The position numbers and the translations under genes are program-made. Below are positions 18,940 through 27,784 of a DNA stretch of 64,000 nt, in pieces (position 1 is the stretch's first letter; each line of letters begins with the position of its first letter). The notes under the pieces were generated by a model, which searched no databases, was not told where the DNA came from, and saw only the letters and a program-made list of their open reading frames with translations. The DNA comes from Oceanibaculum indicum P24 (lineage in GTDB: Bacteria; Pseudomonadota; Alphaproteobacteria; Oceanibaculales; Oceanibaculaceae). Location of the stretch: positions 1-64,000 of the forward strand of contig NZ_AMRL01000017.1 in assembly GCF_000299935.1 (NCBI RefSeq), given 5' to 3'.

Positions 18940-19556
18940 GCTGCCGGTTTCGGCAGCGCCTCCTGCGGGGTCTTCATGCCGGGCAGGGCCGCCATACGCT
19001 TCATCCAGGCCTGGATGGCCGGATAGGCATCCAACGACAGCTCTGCATCGCTGGCATAGGCGGCGGTGACATAGCAGGCGATATCGGCGACGGTCGGATT
19101 CTTGCCGACCAGATAGTCCTTGCCGGTCAGCGCCTCGTTCAGCATCCCGAGCGCGCGCTCGCCCCGGCCCTTGAAGAAGGCGATCACTTCGGCCGGGCCG
19201 TTGTAGAACAGGCGCTGGGCGCGGGTGGCGGCGATGCCGGGGTAGAACAGGTCAGCCTCCCAGAACAGCCATTCGCGGACCTGGCGCTTCTCCTCCGCAT
19301 TGGCGCCATCGAACTTGCCGGTCTTTGCCGCCAGCTCCAGCAGGATCGCGCCGGACTGGGTCATCGGCGTGCCATCGGCGACCAGCACCGGCACCTGGCC
19401 CCATTTGTTGAGCTTCAGGAAGTCGGGCGTCTTGCTCTCGCCGGCACGCAGATTGACGTGCTTGTAGTCATAGGGCAGGCCGCACAGGTCGAGCATCAGC
19501 CCGGCCTTCACGCAGGGCATGGACAGGAAGGTACCGTAGAGGGTGTAGCTGGACAT
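18936..19556 (-). CDS. Glutathione S-transferase family protein
   Basis: The N-terminal thioredoxin-like half begins MSSYTLYGTFLSMPCVKAGL with a Ser/Cys near the glutathione site and the cis-Pro motif GQVPVLVADG near residue 55, followed by MTQSGAILLELA. The helical C-terminal half includes GKNPTVADIACYV (N-capping box). It has 206 residues, usual for the family. Substrate is unknown. Its stop codon overlaps that of the convergent LysR gene. Confidence 0.92.
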   Translation of the reverse strand: MSSYTLYGTFLSMPCVKAGLMLDLCGLPYDYKHVNLRAGESKTPDFLKLNKWGQVPVLVADGTPMTQSGAILLELAAKTGKFDGANAEEKRQVREWLFWEADLFYPGIAATRAQRLFYNGPAEVIAFFKGRGERALGMLNEALTGKDYLVGKNPTVADIACYVTAAYASDAELSLDAYPAIQAWMKRMAALPGMKTPQEALPKPAA

Positions 19557-19620
19557 GGTTTCCTCGGTTGAGACTGTTCCGGAGATGGAACTGCTGCCGA
19601 GGGTATGCCGCTCCTGCGTC

Positions 19621-20607
19621 CTACGCCAGAGGCTCGAAGGGGGAGCCTTTCGGTTCGGAGAAGCCGAAGAAGGCCCAGCTCTGCGCCATGTGCGGCGGCA
19701 GCGGCGCGGTGACGGTCAGGGTCTTGCCGTTCGGCCGCTTCAGCGTGATCTGCCGCGCATGCAGGTGCAGCTTGCGCGACAGCCCGTCGCCGGCCAGCAG
19801 GGCCGCCTGCCCGCCATATTTGCCGTCGCCCTGGATCGGCGTGCCGATGGCCTGCATGTGCACGCGCAGCTGGTGCGTGCGGCCGGTGACCGGGCGCATG
19901 GCGACGAAGGCGGCCTGCTTGCCGACGGCCTCCACCACCATGAAGTCGGTGATCGAGCGCTTGCCCTCTTCCTCGTCGATATCCATCTTCTCGCCGCGCT
20001 TGCCGGGCAGCTTGGCGATCGGCAGGTCGATGCGGCCCTCGCGCGGCTTCGGGATGCCCGCCGTAATCGCCCAGTACAGCTTTTCCGCATCCTTGGCGCG
20101 GAAGGCCGCGGTCAGCCAGCGCGCCGCCGCCGCCGTGCGCGCCAGCAGCAGCACGCCGCTGGTGTCCTTGTCCAGCCGGTGGACCAGGCGCGGCCGTTCC
20201 TTCGCATCGAAGGTCAGCGCGTCCAGCAGCGCATCGATATGGGTGGTCATGCCGGTACCGCCCTGCACGGCAAGGCCGGCCGGCTTGTTGATCGCCAGCA
20301 CCTCGTCATCGCGGTACAGCACGGCGTCGCGCAGCATCGCCTCCAGCTTCGCATCGGCTTTCGGGCGCGGCGCTGTCTTCGGCGGCGGCGCGGAGTCGAG
20401 GTCGCCCAGCGGCGGCACCCGCACGGCCTGCCCGGCCTCCAGCCGGTGGTTCGCCTTCACGCGCTTGCCATCGACGCGCACCTGGCCGGTGCGCAGCAGC
20501 TTTTCCAGCCGGCCATGGCCCAGCGCCGGATAATGCTTACGGAACCAGCGGTCGAGGCGGGTATCCGCATCCTCCGGCGTGATGGTCAGGGTCTCGACGC
20601 CGCTCAT
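19621..20607 (-). CDS. RluA-family pseudouridine synthase (RluC/RluD type)
   Basis: This enzyme isomerises uridine to pseudouridine in rRNA or tRNA. From ATG 20607 it has 328 residues, an N-terminal S4 domain (DTRLDRWFRKHYPALGHGRL) and the catalytic motif RLVHRLDKDTSGVLLLART near residue 145 with the essential Asp. GRTHQLRVHMQAIGTPIQGD follows. A much longer open frame runs upstream through crcB, but MSGVETLTITPEDADTRLD is the natural start and it overlaps the crcB stop by four bases. The target site cannot be assigned. Confidence 0.92.
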   Translation of the reverse strand: MSGVETLTITPEDADTRLDRWFRKHYPALGHGRLEKLLRTGQVRVDGKRVKANHRLEAGQAVRVPPLGDLDSAPPPKTAPRPKADAKLEAMLRDAVLYRDDEVLAINKPAGLAVQGGTGMTTHIDALLDALTFDAKERPRLVHRLDKDTSGVLLLARTAAAARWLTAAFRAKDAEKLYWAITAGIPKPREGRIDLPIAKLPGKRGEKMDIDEEEGKRSITDFMVVEAVGKQAAFVAMRPVTGRTHQLRVHMQAIGTPIQGDGKYGGQAALLAGDGLSRKLHLHARQITLKRPNGKTLTVTAPLPPHMAQSWAFFGFSEPKGSPFEPLA

Positions 20608-20984
20608 GACAGCACCTGCCTTGTCAGATACATGGCCAGGAAGACGGCGGCCAGACAACCGATGACCGACGCGCCGACATAGAGGAAGGCCGGCCCGTAG
20701 GCACCGCGCCCGGACAGCACGGCGACATCCAGCGAGAAGGCGGAGAAAGTGGTCAGCGCGCCCAGGAAGCCGGTGACCAGGAAGCCGCGCAGCTCCGGCG
20801 AGGCCTGGAACTTCAGCGCCAGCCCCTCGACCAGCACGCCGATCAGGAAGCAGCCGATCAGGTTCACCGTCAGCGTTCCCCATGGGAAGCCGGTGCCCAG
20901 CCACTGGCCCATCAGCCTGTTCACCTCGTGGCGCGCCACGGCGCCCACCGCGCCGCCCAGCGCGACTGCTATCAGCATGTTCAT
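20604..20984 (-). CDS. crcB: Fluoride exporter CrcB/Fluc
   Basis: CrcB forms a dimeric fluoride channel in the inner membrane. The 126-residue protein has four hydrophobic segments and the family motifs GGAVGAVARHEVNR near residue 9, PWGTLTVNLIGCFLIG near residue 34, and GFLGALTTFSAFSLD near residue 70. It overlaps the downstream pseudouridine synthase, so the two are co-transcribed, a pairing seen in other alphaproteobacteria. No crcB-type fluoride riboswitch is recognisable upstream. Confidence 0.95.
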   Translation of the reverse strand: MNMLIAVALGGAVGAVARHEVNRLMGQWLGTGFPWGTLTVNLIGCFLIGVLVEGLALKFQASPELRGFLVTGFLGALTTFSAFSLDVAVLSGRGAYGPAFLYVGASVIGCLAAVFLAMYLTRQVLS

Positions 20985-21187
20985 GGGCGTTCTTCAGCTC
21001 GCTTTCATTCAGGTCGATCCTGCGCCGACCGTGCCTTGGGTCAAGCCTGTACACCCGTGGGCAGGAAAAATGCAAAAAAATCGCATCCAGCCGGGATTAG
21101 AGGCAGGGGCTCAGGCGTATACCTTCACGAGTGCGGAAGGAAATCCGCGCTATCCTTCGGTTTCCCCGACCCGACCTGAGCCGTTCG

Positions 21188-21715
21188 ATGCCGCGCCATT
21201 CCCTCTCCCATCTGCTTGCCACAGAGACCGACCGGTTGCGGCGCTATGCCCGCAGCCTGGTCCGTGGCCGGGAGGAGGCGGAGGATCTGGTGCAGGAGAC
21301 CCTGCTGCGCGGCATCGAACGGTCTTCTTCCTGGGACCCGTCACGGCCGCTCGGACCCTGGCTGTTCAGCATCCTGCACAATCTCTATGCCAGCGGCATG
21401 CGCCGTGCGCAGTCGCGCGAGCGGGCACTGCGCCATATCGGGCTGCTGCTGGAGCCGCCCCGTTCGGCACCGAGCACGCCCGCCGCCCAGATGGAGCTGA
21501 ATGAGACGCTGAGGGCGCTCTACGACCTGCCGGAGGAGCAGCGCCAGGTGCTGGTGCTGGTGACCATTGAGGACCTGTCCTACGAGGAGGCCGCCGCCCG
21601 CCTCGATATCCCGCTGGGCACGCTGATGTCGCGCCTGGCGCGTGGCCGTGAAGCCCTGCGGCAGGCGGTGGACCGTGACGAGAAACGCCCGGGCGGGCTG
21701 AAACTGGTGAGGTGA
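21188..21715 (+). CDS. ECF-type RNA polymerase sigma factor
   Basis: The 175-residue protein has sigma region 2 (AEDLVQETLLRGIERSSSW, near residues 30-50, and PLGPWLFSILHNLYASGMRR) and region 4 (YDLPEEQRQVLVLVTIEDLS then EEAAARLDIPLGTLMSRLA). ATG 21188 gives MPRHSLSHLLATETDRL; an upstream start would add an unconserved leader. It is followed after three bases by a putative anti-sigma factor, the classical ECF pairing. Target promoters are not known. Confidence 0.93.
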   Translation: MPRHSLSHLLATETDRLRRYARSLVRGREEAEDLVQETLLRGIERSSSWDPSRPLGPWLFSILHNLYASGMRRAQSRERALRHIGLLLEPPRSAPSTPAAQMELNETLRALYDLPEEQRQVLVLVTIEDLSYEEAAARLDIPLGTLMSRLARGREALRQAVDRDEKRPGGLKLVR

Positions 21716-21718
21716 GAC

Positions 21719-22504
21719 ATGGAAACGCCCATCGACCGTTCGATCAGTGAAACCGATCTGCACGCCTATATCGATGGCGGGCTGGAGGAAGAGCGGATGC
21801 GCGCTGTCGAGACCTATCTCGACGCCCATCCGGAAGAGGCCGAACGCGTGCGCGCCTACGCCCTGCAGCGGCTGGAGATCACCCGCTATCTGGATGCGGA
21901 AATGCAGGTGAAGCCGCTGCGCACCGAACGGCTGTCCAGGCGCTTGTCGCAGGCGCTGGTGCTGCGGAATGCGCGTCCCTGGCTGATGCGCAGTATTGCC
22001 GCCTGCCTGCTGGTCGCGCTGGGCTGGGGGGCACGGGATTTGGCCACCTTGCCGGCAACCGCCGCCTTGCCGGTCTTCGCCAATGAAGCGTCCGAAGCGC
22101 ATGAGACGGTCGCCGAAATCGACCTGCCACTGTCAGAGGTGCTGCGTGCGGAGCCGATGACGCTGGTCAATTATCTCGCCCGGCATGACCAGGCCGACCT
22201 GCCGGTACGGGCGCTTTCGCTGGATGGGTTGCTGGTTCGCGGCGCGCAGCTGGTCCCCTGGGATGAAGGTACGGCGCTGCAATTCGTGTTCGAGAAGGCC
22301 GATGGCGGCCAGCGCGTCACCCTGTTCGTTGCCGTGCCCAGCAAGGCGGCGCATCTGGAGCCGCGTCCAGTCAAGCTGAAGGGCGTGCCGATGGTGTACT
22401 GGCAGAGCGGCCGGCTGGCCTTCGCGCTCAGCGGCGATCTGCCGGAAACCGTGCTGAACGCTTATGCCACGCATATCGAACATGAAACCGAGCGGCGCGG
22501 CTGA
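21719..22504 (+). CDS. Putative membrane anti-sigma factor
   Basis: The 261-residue protein begins with a short cytoplasmic region (SETDLHAYIDGGLEEERMRA) resembling the anti-sigma N-terminal helix pattern, here without the zinc HxxxCxxC motif. One membrane segment lies near residues 82-102 (WLMRSIAACLLVALGW), and the rest is probably periplasmic. Its position three bases after an ECF sigma gene supports the role. The next gene starts inside its end. Confidence 0.82.
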   Translation: METPIDRSISETDLHAYIDGGLEEERMRAVETYLDAHPEEAERVRAYALQRLEITRYLDAEMQVKPLRTERLSRRLSQALVLRNARPWLMRSIAACLLVALGWGARDLATLPATAALPVFANEASEAHETVAEIDLPLSEVLRAEPMTLVNYLARHDQADLPVRALSLDGLLVRGAQLVPWDEGTALQFVFEKADGGQRVTLFVAVPSKAAHLEPRPVKLKGVPMVYWQSGRLAFALSGDLPETVLNAYATHIEHETERRG

Positions 22505-23720
22505 ACCGGCCTTTCCCTACCGCCAACGAGAGTATGAACAGGCCATGCTGGCACCCGGCGACCCCGTTCCCTGGTTTTCCTGCGATTCCACGGTCAATCC
22601 GCGTTTCTTCTTTCCTTCGGTCGCGGACAAGCCGATTGCGGTCTTTTTCTTCGGATCGTTCGCAACGCCGCTCATGGCGCAGCTGTGGGAGGCCTTTTTC
22701 GCCGCGCGGCTGCAGTTCGCGGCGCGGGGCTTCCGTGTCATCGGGGTGAGTGTCGATCCGCGTGACCGGCAGCAACCCCGGCTGATCGATGCACGGCAGG
22801 ACTTCGTCACCCTGTGGGACGCGGAGATGAAGATCAGCAGCCTGTTCGGCGTGGCGCAGCGGCAGATGGCGCCGGGTGCGGGCCCGGGCGCGGTCATGGC
22901 CAACTGGTCCTATGCGCCGGCTGTTTGTCTGCTGGACGAAAATCTGCGGGTCATTGACTGGATTCCGCTGGGCGATGCGAAGACGCATGTCGCGCGGACA
23001 CTCGCGCGGATCGATGCGCTGCCGCCGCGGCCCGCCCCGCGTCTGGTCGAACAATGCGCGCCGGTGCTGCAGGTGCCGAATGTGATCGACCGGCAGCTCT
23101 GCCGGACGCTGATCGAGACCTGGGAGCAGGAAGGCAATACCGAGTCCGGCTATATGGAGCGCGACGGCAAGGGCAAGCTGGTCGGCTATATCGACCACAG
23201 CCGCAAGCGCCGCCGCGATCATTTCCTGCCGAACCAGTCGCCGCTCTATGTAAATCTGAGAGACATCGTCACGCAGCGCATCGTGCCGATGGTGGCGCGC
23301 GCCTATCACTACCAGATCAGCCGGGTCGAGCGCTTCTGCATTGCCTGCTATGACGGCGAGGATGGCGGCGGCTATTTCAAGGCGCACCGGGATTTCACCG
23401 GGCCGGAATCCCACCGCGCCTTCGCCATGACGATCAATCTGAACGCCGAGGAGTATGAGGGCGGACATCTGGTGTTCCCGGAGTTTGGGCCGCATCTCTA
23501 CCGTCCCGGAACCGGTGATGCGGTGCTGTTCTCGGGCTATCTGATGCATGAGGTGCGGCCGGTCACGCGCGGGCGCCGCTTCGCGCTGCTCTCCTTCTTC
23601 TATGGCGAACGCGAGGCCAGGGTGCGCGAACAGTACGCCCAGACCCATGGCATCGGGCACGAGACGGTGCGCGGCACGCCCGAATATGAACGGCTTAAGG
23701 CCGTCGGGAATGACGGGTAG
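22482..23720 (+). CDS. Redoxin-like plus 2-oxoglutarate/Fe(II) dioxygenase-like fusion
   Basis: The N-terminal part (to about residue 170) follows the AhpC/TSA thioredoxin-fold pattern: PGDPVPWFSCDS, VFFFGSFATPLM, GFRVIGVSVDPR. The position of the peroxidatic Cys appears to be Thr/Ser, so peroxidase activity is doubtful. The C-terminal part is a prolyl-4-hydroxylase-like dioxygenase: the HxD pair is in FKAHRDFTG, the distal His in LMHEVRPVTRGRR, and the trailing Arg binds 2-oxoglutarate. ATGs at 22464, 22482 and 22545 are possible; 22482 is a compromise. It follows the sigma/anti-sigma pair closely and may be their target. Confidence 0.82.
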   Translation: MKPSGAAEPAFPYRQREYEQAMLAPGDPVPWFSCDSTVNPRFFFPSVADKPIAVFFFGSFATPLMAQLWEAFFAARLQFAARGFRVIGVSVDPRDRQQPRLIDARQDFVTLWDAEMKISSLFGVAQRQMAPGAGPGAVMANWSYAPAVCLLDENLRVIDWIPLGDAKTHVARTLARIDALPPRPAPRLVEQCAPVLQVPNVIDRQLCRTLIETWEQEGNTESGYMERDGKGKLVGYIDHSRKRRRDHFLPNQSPLYVNLRDIVTQRIVPMVARAYHYQISRVERFCIACYDGEDGGGYFKAHRDFTGPESHRAFAMTINLNAEEYEGGHLVFPEFGPHLYRPGTGDAVLFSGYLMHEVRPVTRGRRFALLSFFYGEREARVREQYAQTHGIGHETVRGTPEYERLKAVGNDG

Positions 23721-23805
23721 CAGGGGATAACGGCTCAGCTGGCTGGACTTTCGGGGGCCGATACCTTAGAACGCCGCCTTCGATTGCGAGAAAGCCGACA
23801 TCCCC

Positions 23806-24600
23806 ATGGATCATCTCGACGCGCTCGAAAGCCAGTCGATCTACATTTTCCGCGAGGCGTTCAACCGGTTTGACCGGCTGGCCATGCTGTGGTCGCTGGG
23901 CAAGGATTCGAACGTCATGATATGGCTGGCCCGCAAGGCCTTCTTCGGCCATATCCCGTTTCCGCTGCTGTTCTGCGACACCGGCAAGAAGTTCCCGGAA
24001 ATGTACGAGTTCCGCGACCGCTACCGGCAGGAGTGGGAACTGAACCTTGTCGTACGGGACTGCCCGCCGATCGAGGAGATCGACGCGACCCTGCCGCCTG
24101 CCGCCCGGTCGGCCGCGCGCAAGACCGAGGCGCTGAAGCGCGCCATCGCGGAATTCGACTTCCAGGCGGTGGTTGCCGGCATCCGCCGCGACGAGGAGCC
24201 GACACGCGCCAAGGAGCGTGTGTTCAGCCCGCGCGGCGTCGATGCGGCCTGGAACTTCAAGGACCAGCCGCCGGAATTCTGGGACCAGTACAACACCGAT
24301 TTCGCACCCGGCACGCATGTCCGCATCCATCCGATCCTGCATTGGACGGAGCTGGACATCTGGCGCTACATCCAGCGCGAGAAGATCCCCGTGGTGCCGC
24401 TCTATTTCTCGAAGAACGGCAAGCGCTACCGCAGCCTGGGCGATACCGACATCACCCATCCGGTTGCCAGCGAGGCGGCGACCATCGAGGAGATCATCGC
24501 CGAGCTGGAGCAGACCCGCGTGCCGGAGCGCAGCGGCCGTGCCATGGATACCGAGACCGAGGACGCCTTCGAGCGGCTGCGCACGGCGGGGTATATGTGA
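23806..24600 (+). CDS. cysD: Sulfate adenylyltransferase subunit 2
   Basis: CysD is the catalytic PP-loop subunit that makes adenosine 5'-phosphosulfate from ATP and sulfate. The PP-loop motif SLGKDSNVMIWLARKAF lies at about residues 30-46. The family patterns FCDTGKKFPEMYEFRD and RRDEEPTRAKERVFS follow. It has 264 residues, a little shorter than the 300-residue E. coli protein. TGA overlaps the ATG of the cysN-cysC fusion by one base (TGATG). Confidence 0.96.
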   Translation: MDHLDALESQSIYIFREAFNRFDRLAMLWSLGKDSNVMIWLARKAFFGHIPFPLLFCDTGKKFPEMYEFRDRYRQEWELNLVVRDCPPIEEIDATLPPAARSAARKTEALKRAIAEFDFQAVVAGIRRDEEPTRAKERVFSPRGVDAAWNFKDQPPEFWDQYNTDFAPGTHVRIHPILHWTELDIWRYIQREKIPVVPLYFSKNGKRYRSLGDTDITHPVASEAATIEEIIAELEQTRVPERSGRAMDTETEDAFERLRTAGYM

Positions 24601-26492
24601 TGACGGCAACGATCCAGGGCACGGCTCCGCTGACCATCGTCATCGTCGGCCATGTCGATCACGGTAAATCCACGCTGGTCGGGCGGCTGATCCATGACAC
24701 CGGCTCCATGCCAGACGGCAAGCTGGAAGCCATCCGGGCGATGTCGGAAAAGCGCGGCATGCCCTTCGAATGGGCCTTCCTGCTGGATGCCTTCCAGGCC
24801 GAGCGCGACCAGGGCATCACCATCGACACGACGCAGATCCACTTCAAGACCGAGACGCGGCCCTACCTCATCGTCGATGCGCCGGGTCACAAGGAATTCC
24901 TGAAGAACATGATCACCGGTGCGTCCGCTGCTGCTGCCGCTGTGCTGGTGGTCGATGCGGTGGATGGCGTGCAGGAACAGTCGCGCCGGCACGGCTATCT
25001 GCTGCATCTGCTGGGGGTGCGTCAGGTCGTGGTGGCGGTGAACAAGATGGACCTCGCCGGCTACGATGCCGGGCGGTTCGCCCAGGTTGAGGCGGATATC
25101 CGCGCCTATCTGGCCTCCATCGGGGTGGAGCCGCTGCAGGTGGTGCCGGTCTCCGCGCGCGAGGGCGACAATATCGCCCGCCGCTCGGACGCCATGCCCT
25201 GGTATCAGGGGCCGACCGTTACTGGGGCGCTGGATGGCTGCATGCCGCCGCCGCCGCCGGTCGATCTGCCGCTGCGCCTGCCGGTGCAGGACGTCTACAA
25301 GTTCGACCAGCGCCGCATTCTCGCCGGCCGCATCGAAAGCGGCAGCCTGTCGGTCGGCGACCGCATCCTGGTGTCGCCGGCGAACAAGAGTGCGCGCATC
25401 GCCAGCATCGAGGCATGGAACGCCGCCGCGCCGGTGACGACGGCCAGTGCCGGCCAGTCGGTCGGCATCACGCTGGACGAGCCGATCTTCGTCGAGCGCG
25501 GGCAGATCGTCAGCCATGCCGAGACCGCGCCGGTCGAGACCAACGTGTTCCGCGCGCGGCTGTTCTGGCTGGGTCACTCGCCGCTGCGACAGGGCCGGAC
25601 CTACAAGATGAAGCTGGCGACCGGCGAGTTCCCGGTCGAGGTGGAGCGGGTCGAGACGGTCATCGATGTCGGCGACCTGTCGCTCAGCGCCAATGAGGCG
25701 GTGGAGCGCAATGGCGTTGCCGAGGTGGTGCTGCGGTCCCGCTCGCTGCTGGCGCTGGACGAGTTCCAGCGCAACCCGCGCACCGGGCGCTTCGTGCTGG
25801 TCGAGGGCTACGACATTGTCGGCGGCGGCATCGTCTCGATGGAAGGCTATCCCGACCAGCGCGCCCAGCGCACCGTGGTCTCCACCAACATCCACGCGGT
25901 GGAAAGCCGGGTGGCGATGGAGGATCGCTGGCAGAAGAACAACCACAAGAGCGGCGTGATCTGGCTGACCGGCCTGTCCGGGGCGGGCAAGACCACGCTG
26001 GCGCTGGCGCTGGAACATGAACTGCACCGCAAGGGCTATCAGGTCTATGTGCTGGACGGCGACAATATCCGCCACGGCCTGTCCGCCGATCTGGGTTTCT
26101 CGCCAGACGACAGGGCGGAGAATATCCGCCGCGTCGGCGAGGTGTCGGCGCTGTTCGCCCAAGCCGGCATGATCGTCGTCACCGCCTTCATCTCGCCCTA
26201 CCGGGCCGACCGTGACCATGTGCGCGACATTGCCGGGACGCTGTTCCACGAGGTCCATGTGAAGGCGGATGTCGCCACCTGCGAGCTGCGCGACCCGAAG
26301 GGGCTGTACAAGAAGGCGCGGGCCGGCGAGATCAAGGATTTCACCGGCATTTCCGCCCCCTACGAGCCGCCGCAGGCGCCGGAGCTGGTGGTGGATACGG
26401 CGAACCAGAGCATCGAGCAGTCGGTGGCCGAACTGTTGGCCTATGTCACCACGCATTTCCGGCTGACGACAAAGACGGCCGCGGCAGGCTAA
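24600..26492 (+). CDS. cysN: Sulfate adenylyltransferase subunit 1 / adenylylsulfate kinase fusion
   Basis: The 630-residue protein joins the CysN GTPase to CysC (APS kinase), as in NodQ-type and many alphaproteobacterial proteins. The GTPase P-loop GHVDHGKSTLVGRL is at residue 18, DAPGHKEFLKN near 94 and NKMDL near 150. The kinase P-loop GLSGAGKTTLA is near residue 458 and DGDNIRHGL follows. The product is PAPS, used for reductive sulfur assimilation or for sulfation. The open frame extends upstream through cysD, but ATG 24600 is correct because it overlaps the cysD stop. Confidence 0.96.
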   Translation: MTATIQGTAPLTIVIVGHVDHGKSTLVGRLIHDTGSMPDGKLEAIRAMSEKRGMPFEWAFLLDAFQAERDQGITIDTTQIHFKTETRPYLIVDAPGHKEFLKNMITGASAAAAAVLVVDAVDGVQEQSRRHGYLLHLLGVRQVVVAVNKMDLAGYDAGRFAQVEADIRAYLASIGVEPLQVVPVSAREGDNIARRSDAMPWYQGPTVTGALDGCMPPPPPVDLPLRLPVQDVYKFDQRRILAGRIESGSLSVGDRILVSPANKSARIASIEAWNAAAPVTTASAGQSVGITLDEPIFVERGQIVSHAETAPVETNVFRARLFWLGHSPLRQGRTYKMKLATGEFPVEVERVETVIDVGDLSLSANEAVERNGVAEVVLRSRSLLALDEFQRNPRTGRFVLVEGYDIVGGGIVSMEGYPDQRAQRTVVSTNIHAVESRVAMEDRWQKNNHKSGVIWLTGLSGAGKTTLALALEHELHRKGYQVYVLDGDNIRHGLSADLGFSPDDRAENIRRVGEVSALFAQAGMIVVTAFISPYRADRDHVRDIAGTLFHEVHVKADVATCELRDPKGLYKKARAGEIKDFTGISAPYEPPQAPELVVDTANQSIEQSVAELLAYVTTHFRLTTKTAAAG

Positions 26493-26523
26493 TATCCGGG
26501 GTCCATGGATCAGGGAGGCAAGG

Positions 26524-26841
26524 ATGACGGAAGAAAAACCGTTCGACCCGTTGTGGGACGAGGATAATGTCCTGATCTGTGTCACCCTGCCGGCGCCGCA
26601 GGGGCAGAAGGGCTGCTATACGGTCATGAACTGGTGCCGGCGCTGCGGCGACAAGCTGGATGTGCAGCGCATCGCCGACAAGCTGGCGCCAAGCCGCGAT
26701 GAAGCCCTGAGTGCCGCACGCCAGTTCTGCCAGCAGAACGCCATCCCCGTGCTGTATGACGCGGATTTCCACCAGCTGGATTTCAGCCAGCCGGAGGCCG
26801 CCGTCGCCACGGCGCTGGAAGGTCTCGGCCGCCCCGCCTGA
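26524..26841 (+). CDS. Unrecognised 105-residue protein with a CxxC motif
   Basis: The protein begins MTEEKPFDPLWDEDNVLICV and has C-x6-C-x2-C (GCYTVMNWCRRCGDKL, about residues 36-48), with another Cys in RQFCQQNAIPV. This could bind a metal or be redox active. No signal peptide or membrane segment is seen. The acidic N-terminus is followed by an alpha/beta-like body. It starts 32 bases after cysNC behind AGGGAGGCAAGG, on the same strand, and lies 113 bases before a TauE-like exporter. I do not recognise the family. Confidence 0.75.
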   Translation: MTEEKPFDPLWDEDNVLICVTLPAPQGQKGCYTVMNWCRRCGDKLDVQRIADKLAPSRDEALSAARQFCQQNAIPVLYDADFHQLDFSQPEAAVATALEGLGRPA

Positions 26842-26953
26842 GGGCCAGCCATGCAGGCTGGCCGGCAACACCGGTCTTGTGCCGTCCCGCTGCCTCGCCT
26901 ATGACATCGGATAGTCTAACGGATCGTCCCGCCCACTACTTTCGAGCCTTCCC

Positions 26954-27784
26954 ATGGATGCAAGCGTGATCGACGCGACGCTGCTGGCGCTCGCCTTTGC
27001 GGTTTTCGCGACCGGCCTGTTCGCCGGTGTTCTGGCTGGCCTGCTCGGCGTGGGCGGCGGCATCGTCATCGTGCCGGTGCTGTTCCATATCCTGACCGGT
27101 TTCAACATCGACCCGTCGGTGAAGATGCATCTGGCGGTCGGCACCTCGCTCGCCACCATCATCCCGACCTCGATCATGTCGGCGCGCTCGCACCACAAGC
27201 GCGGCTCGGTCGATTTCGACCTGCTGAAGTCCTGGGCGCCGATGGCGCTGATCGGCGCGCTGATCGGCACGGTCATTGCGGTCTATGTGAAGGGCGCGGT
27301 GCTAACCGGCGTGTTCGCCGTGGTTGCACTGATCGTCGCCGCCCATATGGCTTTCGCGCGGGAAGGCATGCATATCTCCGATCGGCTGCCCAGGGCGCCG
27401 CTGAAGCATCTGATCGCGGTGATCATCGGCGGCTTCTCGACCATGATGGGCATTGGCGGCGGAACGCTCAGCGTGCCGACCCTGTCGCTGTTCAACTTCC
27501 CGATCAAGCGGGCGGTCGGCACCGCCTCGGCGCTGGGGCTGGTGATCGCCATTCCGGGCACCATCGGCTTCCTCTACAGCGGTATCGGCATGCCGAACCG
27601 CCCGCCGCTCAGTATCGGCTATGTCTCGCTGATCGGCTTCGCGCTGATCGTGCCGGCCACCATGCTGGCCGCCCCCTGGGGGGCGCGCATGGCGCATGCG
27701 ATGAGCACGAAGTGGCTGCGCCGCGCCTTTGCCCTTTTCCTCGCCATCACCTCGGCGCGGATGTTCTACAGCCTGTTCGCCTGA
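26954..27784 (+). CDS. TauE/SafE-family membrane transporter
   Basis: The 276-residue protein has about eight hydrophobic segments in two homologous halves. The family marker GLLGVGGGIVIVPVLFHI lies near residue 30, and a second Gly-rich repeat GIGGGTLSVPTLSLF lies near residue 165. Members export sulfite, sulfoacetate or other organic sulfur acids. Its place after cysD-cysNC fits a role in sulfite or sulfonate handling, but the substrate is inferred. Confidence 0.9.
   Translation: MDASVIDATLLALAFAVFATGLFAGVLAGLLGVGGGIVIVPVLFHILTGFNIDPSVKMHLAVGTSLATIIPTSIMSARSHHKRGSVDFDLLKSWAPMALIGALIGTVIAVYVKGAVLTGVFAVVALIVAAHMAFAREGMHISDRLPRAPLKHLIAVIIGGFSTMMGIGGGTLSVPTLSLFNFPIKRAVGTASALGLVIAIPGTIGFLYSGIGMPNRPPLSIGYVSLIGFALIVPATMLAAPWGARMAHAMSTKWLRRAFALFLAITSARMFYSLFA

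Follow-up and report, generated by a model that had tools for sequence, protein, structure and literature searches.

An extracytoplasmic function sigma factor and anti-sigma pair encoded with a peroxiredoxin-fold/2OG-Fe(II) oxygenase fusion in Oceanibaculum indicum and other Alphaproteobacteria

The stretch analysed here (the window) comprises 64,000 nucleotides of Oceanibaculum indicum P24 (contig NZ_AMRL01000017.1, positions 1 to 64,000; assembly GCF_000299935.1), in which positions 21188-23720 encode three proteins: an extracytoplasmic function (ECF) sigma factor, an anti-sigma factor that has a single membrane helix and lacks a zinc motif, and a fusion of a peroxiredoxin fold with a 2-oxoglutarate- and Fe(II)-dependent (2OG-Fe(II)) oxygenase (Table 1). 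The three open reading frames described in an earlier sequence-only reading of this DNA were all found at the same coordinates. That reading also had the third gene begin inside the anti-sigma gene, which holds for two of its three candidate starts (ATG 22464 and 22482) but not for ATG 22545, which corresponds to the start of same-genus homologs, about 50 bp past the anti-sigma stop. As the first 20 residues of the fusion model were of low confidence, the overlap between the two genes may be a start-codon artefact.

Table 1 Features of the three-gene unit and their coordinates in the window.
Feature	Position	Strand	Basis
Predicted promoter for the unit's own sigma factor, GGGATTA-N16-CGTATA	21093..21121	+	Motif common to window, L059 and L060
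ECF sigma factor, 175 aa	21188..21715	+	Pfam Sigma70_r2, r4_2; clade placement
Anti-sigma factor, 261 aa	21719..22504	+	Weak anti-sigma models; one membrane helix; weak MucB/RseB-like outer fold
Redoxin-like/2OG-Fe(II) oxygenase fusion, 412 aa from ATG 22482	22482..23720	+	Pfam, AlphaFold2
AhpC/TSA (peroxiredoxin-fold) domain, residues 26-141, Met65 at peroxidatic position	22557..22904	+	Pfam, alignment column counts, VIA-align
2OG-Fe(II) oxygenase barrel, approximately residues 190-390; PF13640 = residues 287-374	23049..23651	+	Pfam, alignment, model
Putative ligands H302, D304, H356 and Arg366	23385..23387, 23391..23393, 23547..23549, 23577..23579	+	
Block absent in sister species G001	21080..23731	+	blastn of window 19001-27500 versus L179

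The fusion matched AhpC-TSA (1.2e-8) and 2OG-FeII_Oxy_3 (1e-12) in Pfam, and its AlphaFold2 model showed two confident domains (pLDDT 91.5, pTM 0.85), a peroxiredoxin fold over residues 21-186 followed by a double-stranded beta-helix barrel resembling prolyl-4-hydroxylase (P4H), PHD2 and PiuC. Domain models and structure prediction therefore agree on the architecture first read from the sequence, an AhpC/TSA-like N-terminus joined to a P4H-like domain with HxD...H. Because PF13640 was matched in 66 of 69 aligned homologs and AhpC-TSA in 48, this two-domain architecture is, by these Pfam matches, the rule in the family. In VIA-align comparisons the N-terminal domain resembled Bcp and other peroxiredoxins (Z about 18-20) and the C-terminal domain resembled the P4H of algae and Pseudomonas putida as well as PHD2 (Z about 18-19). 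Bcp/PrxQ and 1-Cys peroxiredoxins thus share the fold of the N-terminal domain, but their catalytic motif PxxxT/SxxC was absent from all 69 homologs in the alignment, which contains the window protein, and the usual peroxidatic cysteine, reported missing by the sequence-only reading, is replaced by methionine in the window. In contrast, the residues predicted to bind metal and 2OG are conserved (HxD in 69/69, distal His in 68/69, Arg366 in 69/69). As the peroxidatic motif is absent throughout while these residues are kept, its loss appears to be an old family trait and the oxygenase the working half. Three homologs depart from this pattern: the distal metal His is lost at L081:5938-7077 (SLLLAAG), where the protein is possibly inactive, and two distant members (L105:5893-6969 and L134:5977-7071) have a cysteine at the peroxidatic column without PxxxT/SxxC and may have kept or regained redox chemistry. 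One genome, G617, encodes a tandem pair of fusion genes (L123:5731-7853).

Among characterised enzymes, the PKHD-type hydroxylases (PiuC, YbiX and CciO) share the 2OG-Fe(II) barrel with HxD...H; PiuC ranked first in Foldseek for the oxygenase domain and, among solved structures, was also the nearest in sequence (E 2.7e-8). However, the fusion scored far below the NCBIfam cut-off for PKHD-type proteins (37.1 versus 180 bits), and these hydroxylases have no redoxin domain and are placed beside TonB receptors in the sections available of PMC12004943. Similarly, the EF-Tu prolyl-4-hydroxylase of P. putida (PDB 4iw3) has the same fold as the barrel (Z 19.1 over 185 residues) but only 17% identity and no redoxin domain, so the likeness is one of fold only. 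On the basis of the model, the fusion is a probable protein or peptide hydroxylase.

The sigma factor matched Sigma70_r2 (7.4e-13) and Sigma70_r4_2 (3.8e-14) in Pfam and, as a small protein with regions sigma2 and sigma4 only, belongs to the ECF type. The anti-sigma factor, for which only weak matches to anti-sigma models were obtained, consists of a helical N-terminal domain, one hydrophobic segment (approximately residues 87-111) and an outer domain. Since its only cysteine, C96, sits within the membrane segment, it has no HxxxCxxC motif of the zinc-binding anti-sigma (ZAS) type, in agreement with the sequence-only reading. That reading further considered the periplasmic part the probable site of sensing, which is weakly compatible with the model of this part, for which the nearest solved folds were MucB and RseB (nine top Foldseek matches, probability 1.00; best E 1.6e-3, none under 0.001), and an envelope signal would be compatible with such a fold. 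ECF pairs with a one-helix anti-sigma factor and a small output are known from Sinorhizobium meliloti RpoE1 and RpoE4 (PMC3511301, PMC6527743, each consulted as extracts). Like these ECF26 pairs (RpoE1/RpoE4 with EcfR1/EcfR4), the window encodes the sigma factor first and then an anti-sigma factor with an N-terminal domain, one transmembrane helix and a periplasmic part, all of which, together with the downstream position, are found in the ECF26 anti-sigma description in the extract of PMC6180224. The output is small and apparently autoregulated in both, but is a redoxin/2OG oxygenase in the window and sulfite oxidase in S. meliloti.

The sequence-only reading had deduced an oxidative or peroxide-stress role for the unit from its neighbours. 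The redoxin-like domain would fit such a role at the sequence level, as would L105 and L134 with their cysteine at the peroxidatic column, but PxxxT/SxxC is lost in all 69 homologs including the window protein with its methionine, the anti-sigma factor has no redox-sensing cysteine besides C96 in the membrane helix, and no recurrent neighbour of the fusion suggests redox. In addition, the adjacent cysDNC and TauE genes persist in a sister species without the unit. A peroxide response is therefore highly improbable, and the claim was not upheld.

Using the window protein as query (E <= 1e-20), fusion matches were identified in 83 of 385 genomes sampled from the Alphaproteobacteria, with up to four per genome and some covering the oxygenase part only. 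In a draw across the phylum, all 19 matches belonged to the window's class, as did the listed non-matches of that draw, and the fusion was present in 2 of 72,556 plasmid records, both alphaproteobacterial and both annotating it merely as '2OG-Fe(II) oxygenase'. Hidden Markov model scanning of every open frame in 80 neighbourhoods, which represent part of the places matched in the class and phylum draws, revealed an ECF and anti-sigma pair beside the fusion in five: the congeneric L059 and L060, L072 (genome G380), and L091 and L102 of one genus (at L061, L074 and L084, less than 1.5 kb upstream was covered, so a link there may have been missed). A targeted search recovered the fusion in 22 of 82 genomes of G177's family and 29 of 36 of G380's family. 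An ECF or anti-sigma match was obtained at 13 of the 51 new loci, and two of these 13 (L225 and L234) were places already known. Wider regions at 20 places added 11 linked loci (L266-L275 and L284) and 9 unlinked ones; for the other new loci the flanks covered extended no further than 1.5 kb. At L269 and L275 the full pair was seen in the open-frame scan. In total, 17 linked genomes (window included) were found in families f1, f52 and f108, with the gene order sigma/anti-sigma/fusion in 14 and fusion/sigma/anti-sigma in three. Some sigma-first loci have an extra gene before the fusion, as in Niveispirillum cyanobacteriorum (L172:7820-14699), where an OpgC-domain gene separates the fusion from the anti-sigma gene, and where genes for a FecI/FecR-like pair and a TonB receptor come next.

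When mapped on a carefully built tree of 70 fusions, the link required 3 changes, a value reached in 0 of 500 shuffles, while a quick tree of 71 fusions that included the new members (19 divergent fusions omitted, the divergent L110 and L135 kept) required at least 10. All 17 linked sigma factors nevertheless fell within one supported clade (98/95) of 22 rows; seven own-genome rows with very long branches, and L151, were left out of this tree. The 20 sigma factors outside the clade comprised 19 with homologous anti-sigma factors and one from S. meliloti pSymA, which we take to be RpoE6; this long-branched sequence, the only presumed ECF26 member in the tree, was separate from the linked clade. 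Because the link requires at least 10 changes on the fusion tree, yet the linked sigma factors form a single clade, members of a single oxygenase family appear to have become associated with one sigma clade on repeated occasions in the Alphaproteobacteria. Within the clade, a YccA/Bax inhibitor-1 membrane protein follows the anti-sigma factor in place of the fusion in Phyllobacterium, Rhizobium and G348 (L176:6274-6993, L177:6267-6977 and L142:692-1429).

The predicted promoter listed in Table 1 also precedes the sigma gene at L059 and L060, and L072 has GGGATAA-N16-CGTATA. Across 1.05 Mb of neighbourhoods and the plasmid stretches, a close pattern was confined to positions upstream of the clade's sigma genes (L059, L060, L072, L176 and L177). 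A strict version (GGGAWWA-N15-17-CGTATA) was found once each in genomes G000, G002 and G003, at the unit, and not in G001, while its reversed control gave one match, in G003. A loose version (GGA[AT][ATG][AG]-N15/16-CGT) was present within 250 bp before the sigma gene in 13 of 14 sigma-first operons (the exception being L266) and before the fusion gene in all three fusion-first operons, for which up to 646 bp were searched. Elsewhere, it was found before 2 of the 139 remaining genes at linked loci, before 2 of 66 further genes of the window, and before 3 of 24 additional sigma genes whose anti-sigma partners are homologous. The -35 of the window, GGATTA, matches 5 of the 6 positions of the ECF26 consensus (-35 GGAATA, -10 GT; PMC6180224, in extract), and the GT is kept within its -10, CGTATA; GGAATA itself is present in the Rhizobium and Phyllobacterium members of the clade.

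Two wider roles for the sigma factor were considered and rejected. Distant control of the unlinked fusions was set aside with the loose motif before 2 of 74, against 1.39 expected by shuffling (fusions shorter than 320 aa, those with less than 100 bp upstream and L285 are left out of this count). One of these two, L282, belongs to the genus of Niveispirillum and is perhaps a former link. A larger regulon was also rejected: counts with up to two mismatches were close to those of the reversed control (20 versus 12 in G000, 16 versus 13 in G001, 14 versus 18 in G002 and 15 versus 16 in G003), so no further targets could be named.

Comparison within the genus indicated that the unit behaves as one block. 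In the sister species G001 the flanks are about 90% identical by blastn, but a 2.65-kb segment containing the unit is replaced by 26 bp, and neither a fusion (E <= 1e-20) nor an anti-sigma homolog (E <= 1e-5) was detected in that genome. Because G001 keeps the -35 sequence CGGGATTA, though not the -10, and G002 and G003 have the unit beside the same cysD as the window, loss in G001 would fit better than gain in the window. Similar short stretches flank the unit, GGGATTA...GGCTCAG (window 21093-21115) and GGGATAACGGCTCAG (23724-23740), and may have mediated the deletion.

The genes next to the unit encode a TauE/SafE permease (TauE 7.4e-52) and a CysNC-type protein (cysDNC). A role in sulfur or sulfite metabolism would agree with this adjacency and with the response of the S. 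meliloti ECF26 factors RpoE1 and RpoE4 to sulfite, as given in the extracts of PMC3511301 and PMC6180224. However, cysDNC and TauE remain in G001 without the unit, the motif was not found before cysD, no sulfur genes were seen in the other linked families, whose gene lists were not annotated gene by gene, and preliminary data in the extract of PMC3511301 have S. meliloti RpoE3 and RpoE6 not induced by sulfite-generating compounds. The sulfite link is thus distinctly unlikely and was set aside. The unit does not include cysDNC, TauE or a small gene of 105 aa (window 26524-26841), which has no Pfam match and keeps its place by cysDNC in each of the genus's four genomes. A PAS_5-domain gene (Pfam, L059) lies between fusion and cysD at L059:5367-5885 and L060:5733-6179 and not in the window, while upstream of the unit L059:8625-11590 and L060:9015-12045 encode a sulfotransferase (Pfam 6.8e-14, L059), a Wzt-type ABC exporter gene and a second sulfotransferase-looking gene with no Pfam match; together with the downstream cysDNC, this gene content suggests a locus for sulfated surface polysaccharide.

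The reading preferred here, and a reasonably probable one, is that the unit is a self-contained ECF module with a sigma factor held by its anti-sigma factor, an autoregulated operon and the fusion oxygenase as its one effector. The membrane anti-sigma factor would keep the sigma factor bound and release it when a signal reaches the outer domain of the anti-sigma factor; the freed sigma factor would transcribe its own operon from GGGATTA-N16-CGTATA, as the conserved motif suggests. The single effector produced would be the cytoplasmic fusion enzyme which, with an Fe(II)/2OG active site complete in sequence and model, most likely uses a protein or peptide as its substrate for hydroxylation, as its P4H/PHD2/PiuC-like fold suggests, with the cysteine-less peroxiredoxin-fold domain as a putative binding or dimerisation platform. 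Because the pairing recurs in three alphaproteobacterial families, the oxygenase is probably the main output of the sigma switch.

Several observations weigh against this module. The pair was absent beside the fusion in 75 of the 80 neighbourhoods, and because of this the enzyme would also have a role independent of the pair; the oxygenase family is, from these neighbourhoods, wider than its sigma link. For five sigma factors of the clade the third gene is not the fusion (it encodes YccA/Bax inhibitor-1 at L142, L176 and L177, and hypothetical proteins in Azospirillum), and two homologs have the peroxidatic-column cysteine described above. Linkage frequencies in f52 and f108 are biased, as these families were searched since linked members were already known there. 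G839 (L280) has a fusion without the pair in the scanned neighbourhood; its surroundings are the same as those of its relative G840, where L275 encodes fusion, sigma and anti-sigma. Finally, the loose promoter pattern was fitted to the sequences on which it is counted, making its Fisher value of 1e-12 optimistic. The fusion-first result appears more telling than this value, because there the same predicted promoter precedes the oxygenase.

As the fusion is mostly unlinked, a common oxygenase gene could simply have landed by a sigma pair several times, making the adjacency incidental. This is very unlikely given the single sigma clade, the two gene orders, the promoter before whichever gene comes first and the joint loss in one block. 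The tie proposed by the sequence-only reading is thus supported as non-accidental: three families have it, the gene order takes two forms, and the promoter motif is the same. Its question of how often the fusion accompanies an ECF factor received a divided answer (17 linked genomes in three families, but only 5 of 80 neighbourhoods in the first survey), as did its concern that the fusion might be a widespread enzyme of known function not tied to sigma factors: the fusion is widespread and mostly away from sigma genes, but it came with no known function and, where linked, with one sigma clade.

A further question is whether the oxygenase forms part of the switch rather than its output, hydroxylating the anti-sigma or sigma factor and making the circuit dependent on O2, Fe(II) and 2OG, as PHD2 does for HIF. 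Its being encoded with the pair in two gene orders, and a fold close to PHD2 and to the EF-Tu-bound P4H, would agree with this, but the same sigma clade has other third genes and most fusions have no adjacent ECF gene, and such a role is considered doubtful. Also speculative, and of low probability, is the broader proposal that the ECF clade is one not previously described and has as its main partner a protein hydroxylase built on a peroxiredoxin scaffold. This enzyme would act on the anti-sigma or sigma factor of its own unit, or on the translation machinery, and would make the envelope switch dependent on O2, iron and 2OG, much as in the PHD-HIF system.

In the open-licence literature, no text was found on a redoxin/2OG-oxygenase fusion, its ECF link, or such a fusion as an ECF output, and the protein is common in the Alphaproteobacteria, yet goes by the generic oxygenase label in both plasmid records. 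For the self-contained module favoured here, where the fusion is wired to a single sigma clade whose promoter can be recognised, both inducing signal and substrate can be tested by turning the sigma factor on. The fusion appears to be a case of a peroxiredoxin fold retained without its chemistry and, if the proposed circuit is true, protein or peptide hydroxylation would join the outputs of ECF switches.

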